64,000 bases of DNA from positions 56,711 through 120,710 of the forward strand of contig PKUE01000161.1 of assembly GCA_002869685.1 (NCBI GenBank). The letters run 5' to 3'. Below are positions 13,731 to 24,528 of the stretch, one piece after another. Numbering within the stretch: position 1 is the first letter of the stretch; every line of letters begins with the position of its first letter. The notes below the pieces were generated by a model. It saw only the letters and a list, made by a program, of their open reading frames with translations, made no database searches and was not told the DNA's origin. This DNA comes from Desulfuromonas sp. Its GTDB lineage: Bacteria > Desulfobacterota > Desulfuromonadia > Desulfuromonadales > Desulfuromonadaceae. A program made the position numbers and the translations under genes.

Positions 13731-16700
13731 TTACTCCTTATCCAGTTCTTTCTCGGCGGTTTCGGTGTCGGGAAAGGCACTTTCAATGATAAAGGATAAC
13801 TCCTCATCCGGCGCCTTGGCGATCGGATTGTCGGAAGACGCTGTTGCCTCCGGGGCGGGCGTCGAAGTCGTTGCCGCCACAGGAGCAGACTCTGAAGCAT
13901 TTGCAGGTTGCCGTTGCTGACGGGGCGGGAGTTTGCGCCACAGCCCATCGGTAGTGAAACTCTGCCAGCCCCAGTTCAGCCAGCGCAGCAGCGCACTGGC
14001 CAGCCACAGAGCCCATAGCAACATCAGAATGCGGTAGACATACATGGGGACAGAGATGGCCCAGGCTTCCGGCATCAGCAGTGGGCTGCGGTCTTGATAC
14101 CAGCGCAGGTTCCAGGCTGTGGAATTGTTGCCGTCAATTTGCATTTCAGGCAAGCCGAGCAAGCCCTGCTGAATAGCAATGAGAATGGTGAGCAACGCAA
14201 TGGCCGTCAGAGCCACCAGCGTGACCTGAGCCAGGTTGAAACGCAGTGGTGTATTCAGCTGCTCATGGTAGCTGCGACGCAGGCCGAGCAGAATCAGCCA
14301 ACCCACGACCGGAACCAGAGCGGGCAAGCTGGCTTGGCTCAGACCGGCACACAACAACAGCCAATGATACCAGCGCAACGGGGTGGGGGCATGCCGGCCC
14401 AGAAGCCACGATAGCACCAGGATGATCAGAAGCACGCCCCAGAACAGGACTGCCGGGCCGAGAACCGGTCCGCCAACCAGCAATGTCCAGCGGTTGTGCG
14501 GCAACTTCAGGGTGATGTGACTTTCAACGTGGGGCGTTGCCAGACTGATTTGCGGTGTCCGGGTGAACCACTCTACTCCTTGAGGCTGATGCCAGTGGAG
14601 AACAATGCTCTGGCTGCCGGGAACCAATGGCAGCGTCACCAGGCGTTTGTTCTGCTTGATCGGCTGAGTGCGGCCGTTGATGACAACTTCATCAAGTTCG
14701 GCCCCCTGAGGCAGAGTGATGACATGATCGGTACCGTGACTGCTGCGCACATCGAGGGACAAACTGGCGGCAGTACTGCGTTTACCGGGGGTGACTTCAA
14801 GGCGGCTGTTGTCGATGGTGATGGTCTGACCTTTCACCCCTTCAGGGCGGGTGATGGTCAGTGTCAGCCGCTCATTGGCCCACGGCGACCACTGCGGTAG
14901 CCAGCGGCCGTGCTGAAAGCGATGGATCACCGGAACGCCAGCACTGTCAATGTGCCACATCCGGTCTGCGTTGACCCGCCAGACTTCACTGAACTGGGCG
15001 CTGTCAGCGGCCACCAATTCCAGCTGGGTTGATTTTTCCAGGGTGGATTGCCAGCGAATCTGCTCGGTGTTGGCTGGCAGATTGATAATGGCGATGTTGT
15101 CCTCGACGGTAATGTCACGGTCCGTGACTCGTTCGCCGTTGAGCAGAGGAATCTGCAACACCGCCGCAGCCCCCTTCTGACTCAAGCGGGTGACGGTGGT
15201 GACCACCTGCCAGTCAAGATTGAGGATCAGTTCCCGTTCGACCCGAACGAAGGTCGGGACTTCACCGGGCTGCAGTTTCTTTTCCGTCTGGCTGCTGATG
15301 CGGGTCAGCTCGATGGGGCCATGGCTGGCCTGGCCATCAGCGATGCCTCCCACCAGCCACCCCGGTGTGGTGAGGTGTACCATGCCGGCTGCCATGGGCA
15401 GTGGCAATTGCAGCCGCTGCAGGGTGTCGGCCAGCGGCGCATGCAGGGTGATGACATGGTGTCCCTCGGGGACGCGGGCCCACAACTGCTGTTGTTGATC
15501 CCGATACAACGGGACATTAGTGTTGCCGTCGAGCTGGACCGTCTGCACCGACAATTGCTTGAGTGGAAAGGGCAGTGGCACGGCACTGGCGACCTGACTG
15601 TGATAGGTCATCTCCAGCTTGAGCCGTTGATTGTCCGTCTGGATGTTCAACTGGTCGAGGGACGTACAATAGGGGGCGCAACCCGGTGGTTCGGTGAGTC
15701 GGGTGTACAGCTCATCGAGCAGTTCCGGTGACGGGAACGCGGCCTGGGCCGGTGTCACCCCGGTACCGAACAGCAACAGGGCGGCAAATCCTGCACTGAG
15801 CAGCGGGAGGATTAACCCGGTGGCCGCGGTGGTTGTCGCAAGTTTATCCCCTTTCCAGCGGGGCAGTGGCCCCTGGCTGAACAGGTGAAGGAACATCAGA
15901 CCGATCAGCACCACGCCGGCTACCAGCAGCAGTCGCGTGGCCAGTGGCGGTAACAGATAGAGGTGCAGTTGCTGGTTGGCCATGACCGGGCCGTTCCAGC
16001 TCAGTTCGATCTGTTGCCATTGCCATTTCGGCAAACCTGGTCCGGTTTGGATTTTTAGGTCCGGATTGTAGCGGTTCATGACGTTAACCGCTTTTTCCAT
16101 CACCATTTCGCGAGAGGCCGGGGCAACACTCTGCACCATGACTTCATCGCTAACCATTGTCGGTAGCGGTGCCGATGGATAATAGCCGTAGTGGTTGTGG
16201 TGAGGTGTCAGTTGCGGGTAAAGGGCGCTGCGGATCTGCTGAACACTGAAGATGAGAACGATGATCAGCATACCGAGCATGGCCACATTACGATACCAGT
16301 GGATCAGTTGTTTTATTCGGCCACCCGGCAGAACACGCAGCAGGGCAATGGGAATCAGCACATGCAACCAGATCAGGCGTGGCGCCTCCGGTTCGTGGTA
16401 GATCAGCACCAGACCGAGCATGGCGATAATTCCTGCGGTAGCTCCCCACAATCGGCCAAAACTCAGGGTAAGAATCAGAACAATAAAGATGTCCAGTAAT
16501 GTCCAGCGTTGCAGCCAGGTCGATGAGGCGTTGTCTACGCCGGTTGCTTCGATCAGCCGCCAGCCTGGGGGCAGATTCAGTCGGGTCACCAGCTGTTCAG
16601 GGTTGAACTGCCAGCCGACGGCAGGCAATGCGCCGAGGTCCACTGGTAAAATCCGGCTCTCGGCTTCGAGAGCGACATTGCCCTGACGCACTTCAACCCC

Positions 16701-17942
16701 GGCACCAGTCGCCGTGGGAAGATGGGTGATGAATTGATCCTGACCATGGCTGCTGACGCGACCCAGCTGCAGAACCGGACTGGCTTCGAGGCGTGAGCGA
16801 CTTTTTAATTCGCCCGTGACGAAGTCTTTCACCGTGTAGCCGCCACCGTCAAAGTCAAGCCAGAGGGTCCGTTGCAATTCCAACCGCTCATTGGCCGGAT
16901 CGCTGTCGCCCCGTTTGCTTGCCACCAGAGTTAATTGGCTTTCGGGGGTCATCAGGTAGGCGGGCAGGTTGCGCCACTGTCCGGGCATGCCGGTCTGGGC
17001 AGGGTCGATGGCTGTGGCCCCTTCAATGCTGACGACACGCAGTTCAGGATGGGCCTCGATCGCCCAGATCTCTTCGTCGGCCCACGGGCCTTCCGGCTTG
17101 GGCAGGGTCAAGGTGTCAATGGGCCCCTGGTGACGGGCTGAAAGTTGCAGCGTCCAGTTGCCCGGTTTGAGTTGCAATCGCAGGGTACCGTCATTTTCCA
17201 GGCGGGCCGGGAGAGGACTCTCAAGGGCCAGCGGAATGTAGCCCGCAGGCAGCATGACACCGGTGCGCATTTCGCGGGCCTGACCGGAGACGTGCAACTG
17301 AATCCGTGTGGTCAGCACCAGCGGAATGGTGTCGGCGACATGACGAAAAACCCGAAAGCTGACGTGATCCTGGACCGCTTCATTGTTCTGGTCACCTTTG
17401 TTGAGCCACAGCAGGCCGTTGTTATCCATTTGGGGCTGATGGATATACTGACCGTTGCGGGTCAGTTTGAGCAGCGCGGTTCCTTTGGGAACCTTGAGGG
17501 TCTCCGGGAGTTGGCTCCAGCTGAATTGGCCGCGAATCTCATAGCGTCCGGCAGCCAGCCACAATGCCGGCTGCTGCTGGCCGTTGTCCCCGCGATCGTT
17601 GTAGCGCAGGACGTTACCGTCTTTGCCGTTGATGGTGACCTGTTGTGGCCAGAAACGGCTATCGCCGGGGAGTTGTACCCAGCCCTGCTGTTCCAATTCC
17701 CAATACTGTTCAAAGCGGGCTCCACGGTCATTGGCGGCCAGAGTAAGACTGCCGGGCCATTGGCAGCGGTGCTGGTCGTCACTGTTCCAGAGCAGGGTGC
17801 AGGCCTGTTCGGTTTCATCATTGAGCACCCAACGCTGCCAGGGCTGCAGGTCTTGAGGAACATAGGGATTGGCGCCAACCACAGTGGGGAGGCTCAATGT
17901 CAGCAGAAGCAGGATCAGAAACAGACGGCGGGGGAGAGACAT
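13731..17942 (-). CDS. very large envelope/membrane protein of unknown function (about 1400 aa from the Met preceding the signal peptide)
   Basis: Signal peptide MSLPRRLFLILLLLTLSLPTVVGA; beta-rich, Trp-rich ectodomain segments between TM clusters; long uninterrupted ORF. Confidence 0.8.
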   Translation of the reverse strand: MSLPRRLFLILLLLTLSLPTVVGANPYVPQDLQPWQRWVLNDETEQACTLLWNSDDQHRCQWPGSLTLAANDRGARFEQYWELEQQGWVQLPGDSRFWPQQVTINGKDGNVLRYNDRGDNGQQQPALWLAAGRYEIRGQFSWSQLPETLKVPKGTALLKLTRNGQYIHQPQMDNNGLLWLNKGDQNNEAVQDHVSFRVFRHVADTIPLVLTTRIQLHVSGQAREMRTGVMLPAGYIPLALESPLPARLENDGTLRLQLKPGNWTLQLSARHQGPIDTLTLPKPEGPWADEEIWAIEAHPELRVVSIEGATAIDPAQTGMPGQWRNLPAYLMTPESQLTLVASKRGDSDPANERLELQRTLWLDFDGGGYTVKDFVTGELKSRSRLEASPVLQLGRVSSHGQDQFITHLPTATGAGVEVRQGNVALEAESRILPVDLGALPAVGWQFNPEQLVTRLNLPPGWRLIEATGVDNASSTWLQRWTLLDIFIVLILTLSFGRLWGATAGIIAMLGLVLIYHEPEAPRLIWLHVLIPIALLRVLPGGRIKQLIHWYRNVAMLGMLIIVLIFSVQQIRSALYPQLTPHHNHYGYYPSAPLPTMVSDEVMVQSVAPASREMVMEKAVNVMNRYNPDLKIQTGPGLPKWQWQQIELSWNGPVMANQQLHLYLLPPLATRLLLVAGVVLIGLMFLHLFSQGPLPRWKGDKLATTTAATGLILPLLSAGFAALLLFGTGVTPAQAAFPSPELLDELYTRLTEPPGCAPYCTSLDQLNIQTDNQRLKLEMTYHSQVASAVPLPFPLKQLSVQTVQLDGNTNVPLYRDQQQQLWARVPEGHHVITLHAPLADTLQRLQLPLPMAAGMVHLTTPGWLVGGIADGQASHGPIELTRISSQTEKKLQPGEVPTFVRVERELILNLDWQVVTTVTRLSQKGAAAVLQIPLLNGERVTDRDITVEDNIAIINLPANTEQIRWQSTLEKSTQLELVAADSAQFSEVWRVNADRMWHIDSAGVPVIHRFQHGRWLPQWSPWANERLTLTITRPEGVKGQTITIDNSRLEVTPGKRSTAASLSLDVRSSHGTDHVITLPQGAELDEVVINGRTQPIKQNKRLVTLPLVPGSQSIVLHWHQPQGVEWFTRTPQISLATPHVESHITLKLPHNRWTLLVGGPVLGPAVLFWGVLLIILVLSWLLGRHAPTPLRWYHWLLLCAGLSQASLPALVPVVGWLILLGLRRSYHEQLNTPLRFNLAQVTLVALTAIALLTILIAIQQGLLGLPEMQIDGNNSTAWNLRWYQDRSPLLMPEAWAISVPMYVYRILMLLWALWLASALLRWLNWGWQSFTTDGLWRKLPPRQQRQPANASESAPVAATTSTPAPEATASSDNPIAKAPDEELSFIIESAFPDTETAEKELDKE

Positions 17943-18182
17943 GGTTTCGATTCCCTTTGGTAGTGCGCATTGCAGAGCGGTCATGGGTGTCGGGACCGTT
18001 GCAGCGCAGTCAGATCAACATTACTCGGGGCTGGGTATGCCCGCAAGGCAGTCAAGACTTGGTATAGACAGTCATTGTAACGCAAAATGAGGCCTGGCGC
18101 ATTAGACAACTCTTCGCCCATTTCATGAAGGGGATGTGGACAAAAACAGGCCACGGACGCGCACTTTGCTCAGCACAGAACA

Positions 18183-19075: not shown

Positions 19076-20359
19076 TTAGCCAAAACGGTAGACAAGTTGG
19101 CCCTGGAAGAACAGTTCAATGGGGCCATCTTCCGAGACCTTGACGACCCGGCCATAGTGGGAAGCTGCGGCGGCCGCCGTGGTCCGGCCGCCGCCGGTAA
19201 CCAGATCGCCGGCCTTGGAGGTGTCAATGATAACACCGGTGTCAAGCAACTCCCCTTTACGGTTGATCACGGTCAGGCCGTCGGAAGATAAGATTCGCAT
19301 CAACTCGCCGGAACGTTTCAAAACACCGATGCGGGTGCCGCAGACGTGGCGGATCAGTGCACGGCTGAGGGGGTCACGCCCACCCACCGATCCTTTGCGT
19401 AACTCCTGCAGATCGGTTTTGCCGTCACTGATGAGAATGACGGTGCCGTGGCGCGATTTGGACAGGGCGTAGACCGACCAGATCAAAACATCAATGGCGC
19501 GTCTGTCGATGCAGCCGGAGAGAAACACGCGGAAAATATCCGGATCGTAAATGCCCCAGTCTCCCTTGCGCCACACCAGCAGTTTACCGCTGTCGAGGAC
19601 GACCTCGATTTCAGAAGCTTCATTGACATAGATGGCAAAGGCGCCGGAACCGGCGTGTTCCAACAGGGCAACGGTTTCCCGGTTGGCCAGCTGGTCAATG
19701 GAGTCGCGAGGTCCGGGGCTGCTGGTACGGATGGTCCCCTTGACATTCATGCGGATGTCAGAGATGTACAGCGCGCGCAGGCCATCGACAAAACGGTAAG
19801 AGAGCGGGTTGACGAAAAAATTGGCATTGATCCGTTTGCGGTCATCGCCGAGATCCAGCCAGCTGTAGCGGGTTTTTTTCAACAGCGGCAGTAACTCTTC
19901 AAGCTGGTTACGATAGACCAGAAAGCCGGTCGTTGCCGGGGCGCCCTCGTACCGTTGATAAGAGAGCTTTTTCAGCAGCTGGATAAGGTTTTGCGTGGTC
20001 CAGAACACACCTTTGCGGTCATCCCGGATATAGCGGGCGACGGCGATATCCATCAGCGATGTCAGCAGGGCCGTGCGGAAATGGGCGGCGTAGCCTTTGG
20101 CGGAAAAGCCCGAAAACAACCCCTCGAGGGCCGTCAGCATTTCGCGAATGAAGCTCTCTTCGGTGGCGGTGAACGCCAGGGAGCCGCGCCGGGCACGGAA
20201 CTGGTACGGGATGGCATCGATCTCGATACCGATCACCAGGTCGCGTTCATTGTCGCCATCCGACTGGTCGCACTCCTCCAGTTCATTGAAAGAGACTTTA
20301 GCTCCCCCAAGAAAAGAACAGACACTGTTGCGAATGGCGTTAAAGGCTGATTTCGGCAT
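19076..20359 (-). CDS. protein with C-terminal DAC/DisA_N-like (diadenylate cyclase-like) domain and an unknown N-terminal domain
   Basis: C-terminus SRHGTVILISDG...SSDGLTVINRKGELLDTGVIIDTSKAGDLVTGGGRTTAAAAASHYGRVVKVSEDGPIELFFQGQLVYRF parallels the DAC pattern (IGALxxI...HDGAVII...GTRHRAAxxIS...VIVVSEExGxIxL). Confidence 0.6.
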   Translation of the reverse strand: MPKSAFNAIRNSVCSFLGGAKVSFNELEECDQSDGDNERDLVIGIEIDAIPYQFRARRGSLAFTATEESFIREMLTALEGLFSGFSAKGYAAHFRTALLTSLMDIAVARYIRDDRKGVFWTTQNLIQLLKKLSYQRYEGAPATTGFLVYRNQLEELLPLLKKTRYSWLDLGDDRKRINANFFVNPLSYRFVDGLRALYISDIRMNVKGTIRTSSPGPRDSIDQLANRETVALLEHAGSGAFAIYVNEASEIEVVLDSGKLLVWRKGDWGIYDPDIFRVFLSGCIDRRAIDVLIWSVYALSKSRHGTVILISDGKTDLQELRKGSVGGRDPLSRALIRHVCGTRIGVLKRSGELMRILSSDGLTVINRKGELLDTGVIIDTSKAGDLVTGGGRTTAAAAASHYGRVVKVSEDGPIELFFQGQLVYRFG

Positions 20360-22062: not shown

Positions 22063-24528
22063 ATGTTTTCTCAAATGAAGATTTCGACCAAGTTGATGCT
22101 TGGTTTTGGAACGATTGTTCTTTTCCTCGTCGTGCTTGGCGCGACAGGGATTTATCAGCTGCGTTCTGTGAATCGCGGTTATCGTGTTGACGTGATGACG
22201 GAGATGATGATTAAGGACTGTGCCCGCGAGATGGAAACCGACATTCTTCAAATTCGGCGCAGTGAGAAGGATTTTCTGGCGCGCCAGGATATGAAGTATG
22301 TTGAACGGGCTCAACGTTATCTGAGCGAGGCTCTAGACGATATTGGTGAACTAAAAGAGCTGGAAGACGATGAGCATCTGCAGGCCGAATTGGATAAAGT
22401 GGCCGGCCAAATTAATCGCTACGCTGTTCTTTTTGAACAAATCAGTCAACTGTCACAACAGCGCGGACTGGAGCCCAGTCAGGGATTGCAGGGAAGTTTT
22501 CGTCAGCAGGCGCATGACCTGTCGAGCATGATGGCGTCCTTCGATGTGGAAGAGGTGCAGTACTGGATGCTGATGCTGCGGCGGTACGAAAAAGATATGA
22601 ATATCAATGGCCGCAATATGGCAAAAAAACAACAGTATTACAGCAAGTTTAATCAGGCCATGACAAAATGTCTGGAGGGAATTGGTGACAGTACCCTTTC
22701 TGAAGAGGTGAAGCAGCAACTGACAACTCTGTTTCGGTCCTATCAGGACAGTGTGGCGAGCTGGAATGCCGGGAAAGGGGATTACCAGACCGTTCGCAGC
22801 CGGGCAGCGAAATCGGAAAGCCTTCTCGCTGACCACTATGTGAAGGATGGACGAGCTTTGCTGCTGACGCTACGCAAGGAAGAAAAAGATTATATGTTGC
22901 GTGGTGATGAAAAATATCTGGCGCGTCTGGATAAAGGGGTTGCACGCCTCGAGCATGAGCTGACGTCTGCAAACATTGATCGTGGCGCGCAGGAAAAGTC
23001 CCTTACACTGTTGAAAGATTATCAGGAAGGAATTCATCGGTTGGCGGGACTTGATAAGAACATCGCCGCTCTGATTGCCGAGATGAAAATTCAGGCCGAT
23101 GAGGTTCTGGAGTTTTCTGAAGAGTTAGCCGCCCTTACCGCGCAATCAGCAGACCGGATCAGTAGCGATATCTCGGCAAAATCAACTTCATCAATCAACT
23201 TGATGTGGACCATCGTCGGTGCCAGTGTCTTTTTGGCGTTGAGCTTTGCCTCTCTGATTGCTCGGGGAATTTCCCACCCGTTGCGCAGTGCCTTTGATGT
23301 GGTCGCTGAATATGGCAAGGGCAACACGTCCAACCGTCAGCTGAACATGGGCAAGGAGGTCAATTGTTCGGAGATCAATCGGTGCAGCAATTCAGAGTGC
23401 TCACAATATGGCAAAACCGGCCACTGCTGGGTAGATGTCGGCACTTTCGGGCCGGACGCCAGTTGCAGTAAGATTTTAGATGGCACCTATCAGAATTGTC
23501 AGGACTGTAAAGCGTATAGTGCCCGTACTGAAATGACCGAACTCGGTTCGGTGTTGGTGGGAATGGCCAACAGTTTGCAGAATCGCAGCGATCTGGCGCG
23601 GGCCATTGCCCGTGGCGATTTGACCCAGGATGTCCAGGTGGCTTCCAAGGATGATCAGTTGGGTATGGCGTTGAAAGAGATGCTCGAAGGGCTGCGCGAA
23701 ATGGTGGGTGGAATGCAGGTTGCGGGCGAGCAGATTGCCTCGGCGTCCACGCAAGTGGCGGATGCCAGTCAGGCCCTGTCGCAGGGAGCGACCGAGTCGG
23801 CCAGCTCGCTGGAACAGGTGACGGCCTCAATGAACGAAATGGCCAATCAGGTGAAAGATACCGCCGAGCATGCCAGTGCCGCCAACCAGCTTTCCGGTGA
23901 ATCAAAACTGGCCGCGGAAAAAGGCGATGAGCGGATGGGCGAGATGGTTCAAGCCATGAATGACATCAACAAGGCGGGACAGGATATCTCGCGGATTATT
24001 AAAGTTATCGATGAGATCGCGTTCCAGACCAATCTGCTGGCCTTGAATGCTGCGGTAGAGGCAGCCCGTGCCGGTCAGCACGGAAAAGGGTTTGCTGTTG
24101 TGGCTGAAGAGGTGCGCAACCTGGCTGCGCGCAGTGCCAAAGCGGCTGAGGAAACGGCAGAATTGATCGAGAGTTCTGTCGCCTTAACGGGGCGTGGGGC
24201 CGTCATTGCCGAACAGACCGCCGAAGCCTTACAGGAAATTATGGCGGGCAACAGTAAAATAGCTGACTTGCTCAAGGATATGGCCATAGCCTCCAATGAA
24301 CAGGCTCAGGGGATCAGTCAGGTCACCATCGGATTGACGCAGATTGATCAGGTGACGCAACAGAATACCGCCAGTGCCGAGGAGAGTGCGGCAGCGGCAG
24401 AACAGTTGTCCAGCCAGGCTATGCAGCTACGTGAAATGTTGAAGAAGTTCAAAGTTGCAGAAGGCGCGAATGTCAGTGCTCCAGTCCGGGGTGAAGTGAG
24501 AGCGGAAACCTTTCTGACCTACGAGTGA
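22063..24528 (+). CDS. methyl-accepting chemotaxis protein with long helical periplasmic domain and Cys-rich (two-CW-like) insert
   Basis: [45 protein letters not shown] signalling hairpin; two TMs; three R[RK]xEKD motifs; [23 protein letters not shown]. Confidence 0.95.

Follow-up and report, generated by a model that had tools for sequence, protein, structure and literature searches.

A conserved Desulfuromonadia protein with a diadenylate cyclase-like domain and a remodeled active site is a putative nucleotide-binding signaling protein

DS-2 of Escherichia coli, an anti-phage system validated with DefensePredictor, consists of a phospholipase, a cGAS-like enzyme and a diadenylate cyclase (DAC) (PMC13092281). 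Defense was lost when one or the other of two residues predicted to be catalytic in the DAC was mutated, homologs of this DAC were located near CBASS in 15 of 30 cases, and its authors propose that the DAC acts as a second cyclase (PMC13092281). For the link between DACs and CBASS, that paper cites Galperin 2023 (J. Bacteriol. 205, e00023-23). The mutations establish the importance of the pocket to DS-2, without distinguishing binding from catalysis. That DS-2 needs its DAC for phage defense poses the question of why there should be a second cyclase-like protein beside the system's own CD-NTase.

Here, we describe a DAC-like protein, P0001, encoded in a 64,000-nucleotide stretch of DNA (the window) from Desulfuromonas sp. 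The gene occupies positions 19076–20359 of the minus strand, with its ATG at 20359 and its stop at 19076, and encodes 427 residues. An earlier note, made from the sequence of this DNA alone, had given the same coordinates, and all of the motifs that it quoted were found: SRHGTVILIS (residues 302–311), SSDGLTVINRKGELLDTGVII (residues 358–378), GGGRTTAA (residues 389–396) and KVSEDG (residues 407–412). P0001 comprises an N-terminal region (residues 1–285; 19505–20359, minus strand, as are all features of the gene given below) with a YEG motif (residues 137–139; 19943–19951) that was identified in alignments of the window family and of the three groups of the superfamily described below, and a DAC-like domain (residues 296–421; 19097–19474) that was delineated by Pfam, profile searches and hhalign. 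Orthologs within the order are 65–91% identical to P0001 over the full length. Upstream, and separated by a 79 bp gap, is a co-directional HD-domain gene (HD PF01966; 20439–21764, minus strand) that we take to be dGTPase-like, and downstream, after a gap of 35 bp, is a co-directional short-chain dehydrogenase gene (SDR, PF00106; 18183–19040, minus strand). This order of three genes is conserved within the genus, and no conserved neighbors of the window family were found outside it among the ortholog loci of related genomes and of the class. PADLOC and NCBIfam searches of P0001 returned no match, a PDB sequence search returned no meaningful match, and an AlphaFold2 model derived from a two-sequence alignment had a pLDDT of 33, too low for the model to be of use.

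The only Pfam family to match P0001 was DAC (PF02457; 22.2 bits, E 1.1e-4, residues 296–421), at a score below the curated cut-off of 27 bits for that family. PF02457 also matched 28 of the 42 orthologs (best E 8.7e-6), with the runner-up family matching 5 of 42, as well as two of the eight members of a distant related group. Since an unrelated GlmU from the same genome (L003) scored 20.9 bits with the same model, a sub-threshold match was judged to be insufficient, and Pfam alone was rejected as proof of DAC homology. With a profile (A6) for which only proteins of the P0001 type and distant relatives of these were used, about 30–40 additional Desulfobacterota ORFs were retrieved, most of them ~300 aa long and matched through the C-terminal part only (best E 9.4e-10). 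Of the dozen of these matches that were checked, most were DACs that aligned in register and carried RHR, RHA, RHN or RHH. By hhalign, the superfamily profile A6 matched CdaZ-like DACs with Prob 95 and E 1.8e-8, and the C-terminal part of the window family matched mixed DACs over 127 columns (E 3.4e-4, Prob 38), with an E of 0.25 for the reversed control. These values depend on the set of DACs chosen, and significance needed the more diverse sets: against a narrow set of near-identical CdaA sequences the E was 0.14, which is not significant. The order and spacing of motifs in the relatives also agree with those of DACs, based on an alignment of 25 relatives and 17 DACs. We consider the homology of the C-terminal part of P0001 to DACs to be established by these sequence comparisons, as the earlier note had proposed for the C-terminal ~130 residues, with the qualification that the PF02457 match falls under the Pfam cut-off and that support comes from the profile searches and the HMM–HMM comparison. 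A chance resemblance could be argued from that low score, from the similar score of GlmU and from the outcome with the narrow CdaA set, but it is very improbable given that the A6 profile retrieves true DACs in register and that hhalign is significant with diverse DACs and not with the reversed control.

The N-terminal half of P0001, which had been described as uncharacterized, indeed has no Pfam family, and its full-length homologs have no Pfam or NCBIfam name, but it is not private to this protein. The window family aligned by hhalign with a second group, from other classes and phyla, over 379 columns (Prob 99.6, E 3.3e-24), and a third group matched the window family and the second group with E values of 4.4e-15 and 7.7e-15. 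The YEG motif is near-invariant in all three groups. P0001 has the features that we propose for this "DACL" superfamily, namely the YEG motif, a GxR without His, KVSxDG, and alignment over the full length. The loci in which DACL genes were identified included the following: two type I restriction operons, in one of which ten bp separate the gene from a preceding hsdS and hsdR is two genes further (L059, 3369–13246), and in the other of which it overlaps hsdM and is followed by hsdS and hsdR (L178, 5149–10644); an Agrobacterium vitis plasmid, where it is 118 bp from a convergent operon of patatin, DncV-like, ThiF and Mov34 genes, a type II CBASS (L148); four loci where it adjoins a gene for a SpoIIE-type phosphatase, some with a STAS gene (L175–L177 and L117); a locus with MoxR-like AAA and VWA genes (L179); and one where it is two genes from a TIR gene (L093). 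The closest paralogs of P0001 (L080, L096 and L097; 44–45% identity) are upstream of REC-GGDEF genes, which two of them (L096 and L097) overlap, and two of the three are downstream of a REC-HATPase gene. As these contexts were collected by following hits, without a background rate, no enrichment of defense or signaling contexts is claimed from them.

One DACL locus can be compared directly with DS-2. At L058, genes for a CapV phospholipase and a CD-NTase are followed, 110 bp further along the same strand, by a DACL gene that encodes 482 aa. The two CBASS genes of L058 led to an E. coli locus with 64.6% DNA identity over 97%, which matches NCBIfam DS2_1, DS2_2 and DS2_3. The CD-NTases of L058 and E. 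coli DS-2 are 64% identical, and the third gene of L058 encodes a DACL protein and not DS2_3, such that, at this one locus, one variant DAC appears to have been replaced by another. A DACL relative thus fills the same operon slot, third after the phospholipase and CD-NTase genes, as does the DS-2 DAC in another lineage. E. coli DS2_3 (NF053872) matches Pfam DACNG and DACNH and contains DGT and GSRYNS in a C-terminal stretch, and its Desulfobacterota homologs combine motifs of the DGA or DGG type with GARYNS or GARFNS; consequently the His of RHR is missing from DS-2 DACs too. P0001 and DS2_3 are alike in having a DAC-type C-terminus without this His, and differ in that P0001 has R-T-T where DS2_3 has R-Y-N. 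There was no match to DACNG or DACNH at E values up to 10 in P0001, nor any in its genome, and outside the DAC part the DACL proteins and the DACNG–DACNH family gave no significant HMM–HMM match. DACNH was considered as the middle region of DACL proteins and rejected, as the match of the YEG region in E. coli DS2_3 was weak (i-E 0.009) and the HMM–HMM comparison failed without the DAC part. By the tests run, then, DACL proteins do not appear to be members of the DACNG–DACNH family. In addition, P0001 itself is outside of any CBASS operon, with the HD-domain and SDR genes as its neighbors, the phospholipase/CD-NTase order being seen in the relative at L058 only. DACNH-DAC proteins (L183–L202) were identified in 22 of 390 genomes of the phylum, and those that were aligned have R-Y-N or R-F-N rather than RHR, so that this group, too, shares the absence of the His.

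The active sites were compared in the same alignment of relatives (25) and DACs (17). The Asp-Gly of the DGA motif is invariant in all of these proteins, and in the window family the third residue is Leu, Met or Ile instead of Ala; in P0001 the motif is D-G-L (residues 360–362; 19274–19282), as the earlier note had read it, with Asp-Gly present in all 42 members. At the position of G-x-RHR-A-A, P0001 has GGGRTTAA (residues 389–396; 19172–19195). Here the earlier note was right that the motif is altered, but the replacement is not complete: R392 corresponds to the first Arg, and Thr residues stand at the positions of the His and the second Arg. The Gly and first Arg are retained among the relatives (Arg in 24 of 25), whereas the His is present in 17/17 DACs and 0/25 relatives. 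Conversely, a Lys two residues before an invariant Ser was found in 24/25 relatives and 0/17 DACs, and 24/25 relatives have an Asp at a position occupied by Glu or Ser in DACs; these counts describe a sample and are not independent events, since the DAC set leans toward one phylum and some of the relatives are closely similar to one another. In P0001, these residues are in the KVSEDG motif (residues 407–412; 19124–19141), in which K407 and D411 are the relative-specific Lys and Asp and S409 is common with DACs. K407 should face the same side as S409, as they are two residues apart on a strand.

No variation was seen at D360, G361, GGGRT (residues 389–393), K407, S409 or D411 among the 42 full-length members of the window family, and in the YEG motif the Glu is present in 42/42 and the Tyr and Gly in 39/42. 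Within the genus, dN was 0.003–0.106 and dS 0.14–1.35, giving ratios of about 0.02–0.1 that are rough because dS is near saturation for most pairs; in every pair, the N-terminal part had a higher dN than the DAC-like part. An altered site that is invariant in 42/42 members, together with strong purifying selection, indicates that P0001 is not a decaying copy, and these sequence comparisons show that such proteins share the loss of the RHR His as a fixed trait, as opposed to a sign of decay.

Other DACs place the site of P0001 in context. The same genome has a separate canonical CdaA with a DAC match in a CdaA-YbbR-GlmM locus (L001), the presence of which the earlier note had wished to see checked, and we take its gene order to be folP-cdaA-ybbR-glmM. 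P0001 and CdaA (PF02457) have in common a DAC-type C-terminal domain with the Asp-Gly, first Arg and Ser, whereas P0001 is without the RHR His and second Arg, has K407, and has a different and longer N-terminal region with no YbbR neighbor; the CdaA-YbbR-GlmM order was not found around its gene. By profile, the nearest true DACs to the superfamily are the CdaZ-like single-domain DACs of Desulfobacterota (~300 aa), some of which also vary at the second Arg but which retain the RHR His in every case seen, have no counterpart of K407 and have another N-terminal region. Such a CdaZ-like DAC of ~300 aa is present in many Desulfobacterota (L163, L165–L169 and similar loci), and as several have RHA, RHN or RHH, the second Arg may be dispensable. 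The profile that retrieved relatives of P0001 also retrieved a 584-aa fusion of a phosphoribosyltransferase (PRTase) and a DAC (L180, 6428–10502), which like P0001 has an altered RHR (SRKE) and which differs from it in its phosphoribosyltransferase N-terminus and in a DAC that scores above the Pfam cut-off. A reverse transcriptase gene is two genes from this fusion, which suggests that L180 is an undescribed defense-type system.

Our survey covered one phylum together with plasmid and phage collections. The window family was matched in 32 of 98 related genomes and in 97 of the 244 genomes sampled from the class, a few of these matches being partial or distant, and in the phylum sample full-length matches with the window-family profile were found in members of the class only. 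No record in the plasmid and phage collections matches the window family, no close relatives of P0001 were found in viral contigs, either directly or in scans with relatives as queries, and a DNA search of E. coli genomes with DACL genes gave no match. A DAC above the cut-off is present in 236 of 244 genomes of the class, such that co-occurrence with a DAC cannot separate a receptor from anything else.

Taken as a whole, we assign a probability of about 0.5 to the interpretation that P0001 is the Desulfuromonadia member of the DAC-derived DACL superfamily and a conserved, putative nucleotide-binding signaling protein that acts as a sensor. Given the consistent remodeling of its active site and the presence of its cousins in defense and signaling operons, P0001 is probably a working nucleotide-signaling protein and not a dead copy. 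In such a protein, the N-terminal region with the YEG motif is joined to a C-terminal DAC-fold domain whose pocket would still bind a cyclic dinucleotide or an adenine nucleotide; phosphate would be held by R392, K407 and S409, and D360 would be in contact with ribose or a metal. Binding would then be signaled through the N-terminal region to a partner under its control, and the canonical CdaA of the same genome is the obvious candidate for the source of the ligand. The weakest step in this reasoning is the specific role, for which a sensor of c-di-AMP (or ATP) seems the single most likely form. That the window gene is without informative neighbors outside its genus counts against this explanation.

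The earlier note had left the choice between an unusual cyclase, a receptor and a dead paralog. In M. tuberculosis DacA, changing RHR to AAA abolishes both ATP binding and cyclase activity (PMC3328451), evidence that comes from a triple-Ala mutant and not from an R-T-T site with an added Lys. Given this result and the canonical DAC already present in the genome, we favor a sensor as more likely than a cyclase. A variant cyclase, in which the remodeled pocket still joins nucleotides to make c-di-AMP or another product and K407 stands in for the lost His and Arg, is nevertheless a tentative possibility of some weight. It fits with the invariant Asp-Gly, first Arg and Ser, with the variation of the second Arg in some CdaZ-like DACs, and with the His-less DAC of DS-2, which needs its predicted catalytic residues and has been proposed as a second cyclase (PMC13092281); the presence of the RHR His in all 17 sampled DACs, the loss of ATP binding and activity in DacA, and the CdaA encoded in the same genome argue against it. 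The same DacA result (PMC3328451), along with the missing His and second Arg, could instead be taken to mean that P0001 is a dead paralog or a protein-only scaffold that kept the fold and lost nucleotide binding, but this is quite unlikely, as D360, R392, K407, S409 and D411 are present in 42/42 members and nearly so in relatives from the other groups, and selection is strongest in the DAC-like part.

An anti-phage function of P0001 in its own right is also unlikely. The CBASS and type I restriction loci of its relatives and its patchy occurrence within the class point in that direction, whereas the window family is stand-alone with neighbors that differ between families, has no match in the plasmid or phage collections, and occurs here in a genome with no CD-NTase (SMODS) match. 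The context of the window gene lends no support to a role of its own in defense.

The preferred reading, of P0001 as a sensor, makes its family a candidate receptor of c-di-AMP or of a nucleotide in Geobacterales and Desulfuromonadales, for which D360, R392 and K407 are the residues that the DACL family offers as key candidates in the pocket. More tentatively, and with somewhat less confidence than an even chance would give, DACL proteins may constitute a new class of DAC-fold nucleotide signaling proteins with a His-less, Lys-containing pocket, a module that is interchangeable among CBASS, type I restriction, SpoIIE and GGDEF operons and has a conserved stand-alone version in Desulfuromonadia. 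The superfamily is unnamed in Pfam and NCBIfam, and an earlier mention is possible, for example in the Galperin 2023 survey of DAC architectures.

Two other genes of the window were also of note. A 1417-aa ORF (13731–17984, minus strand) is conserved within the genus and has zero Pfam matches. On the plus strand, positions 22063–24528 encode a methyl-accepting chemotaxis protein with a Cys-rich insert (~residues 434–480) before its signaling domain.
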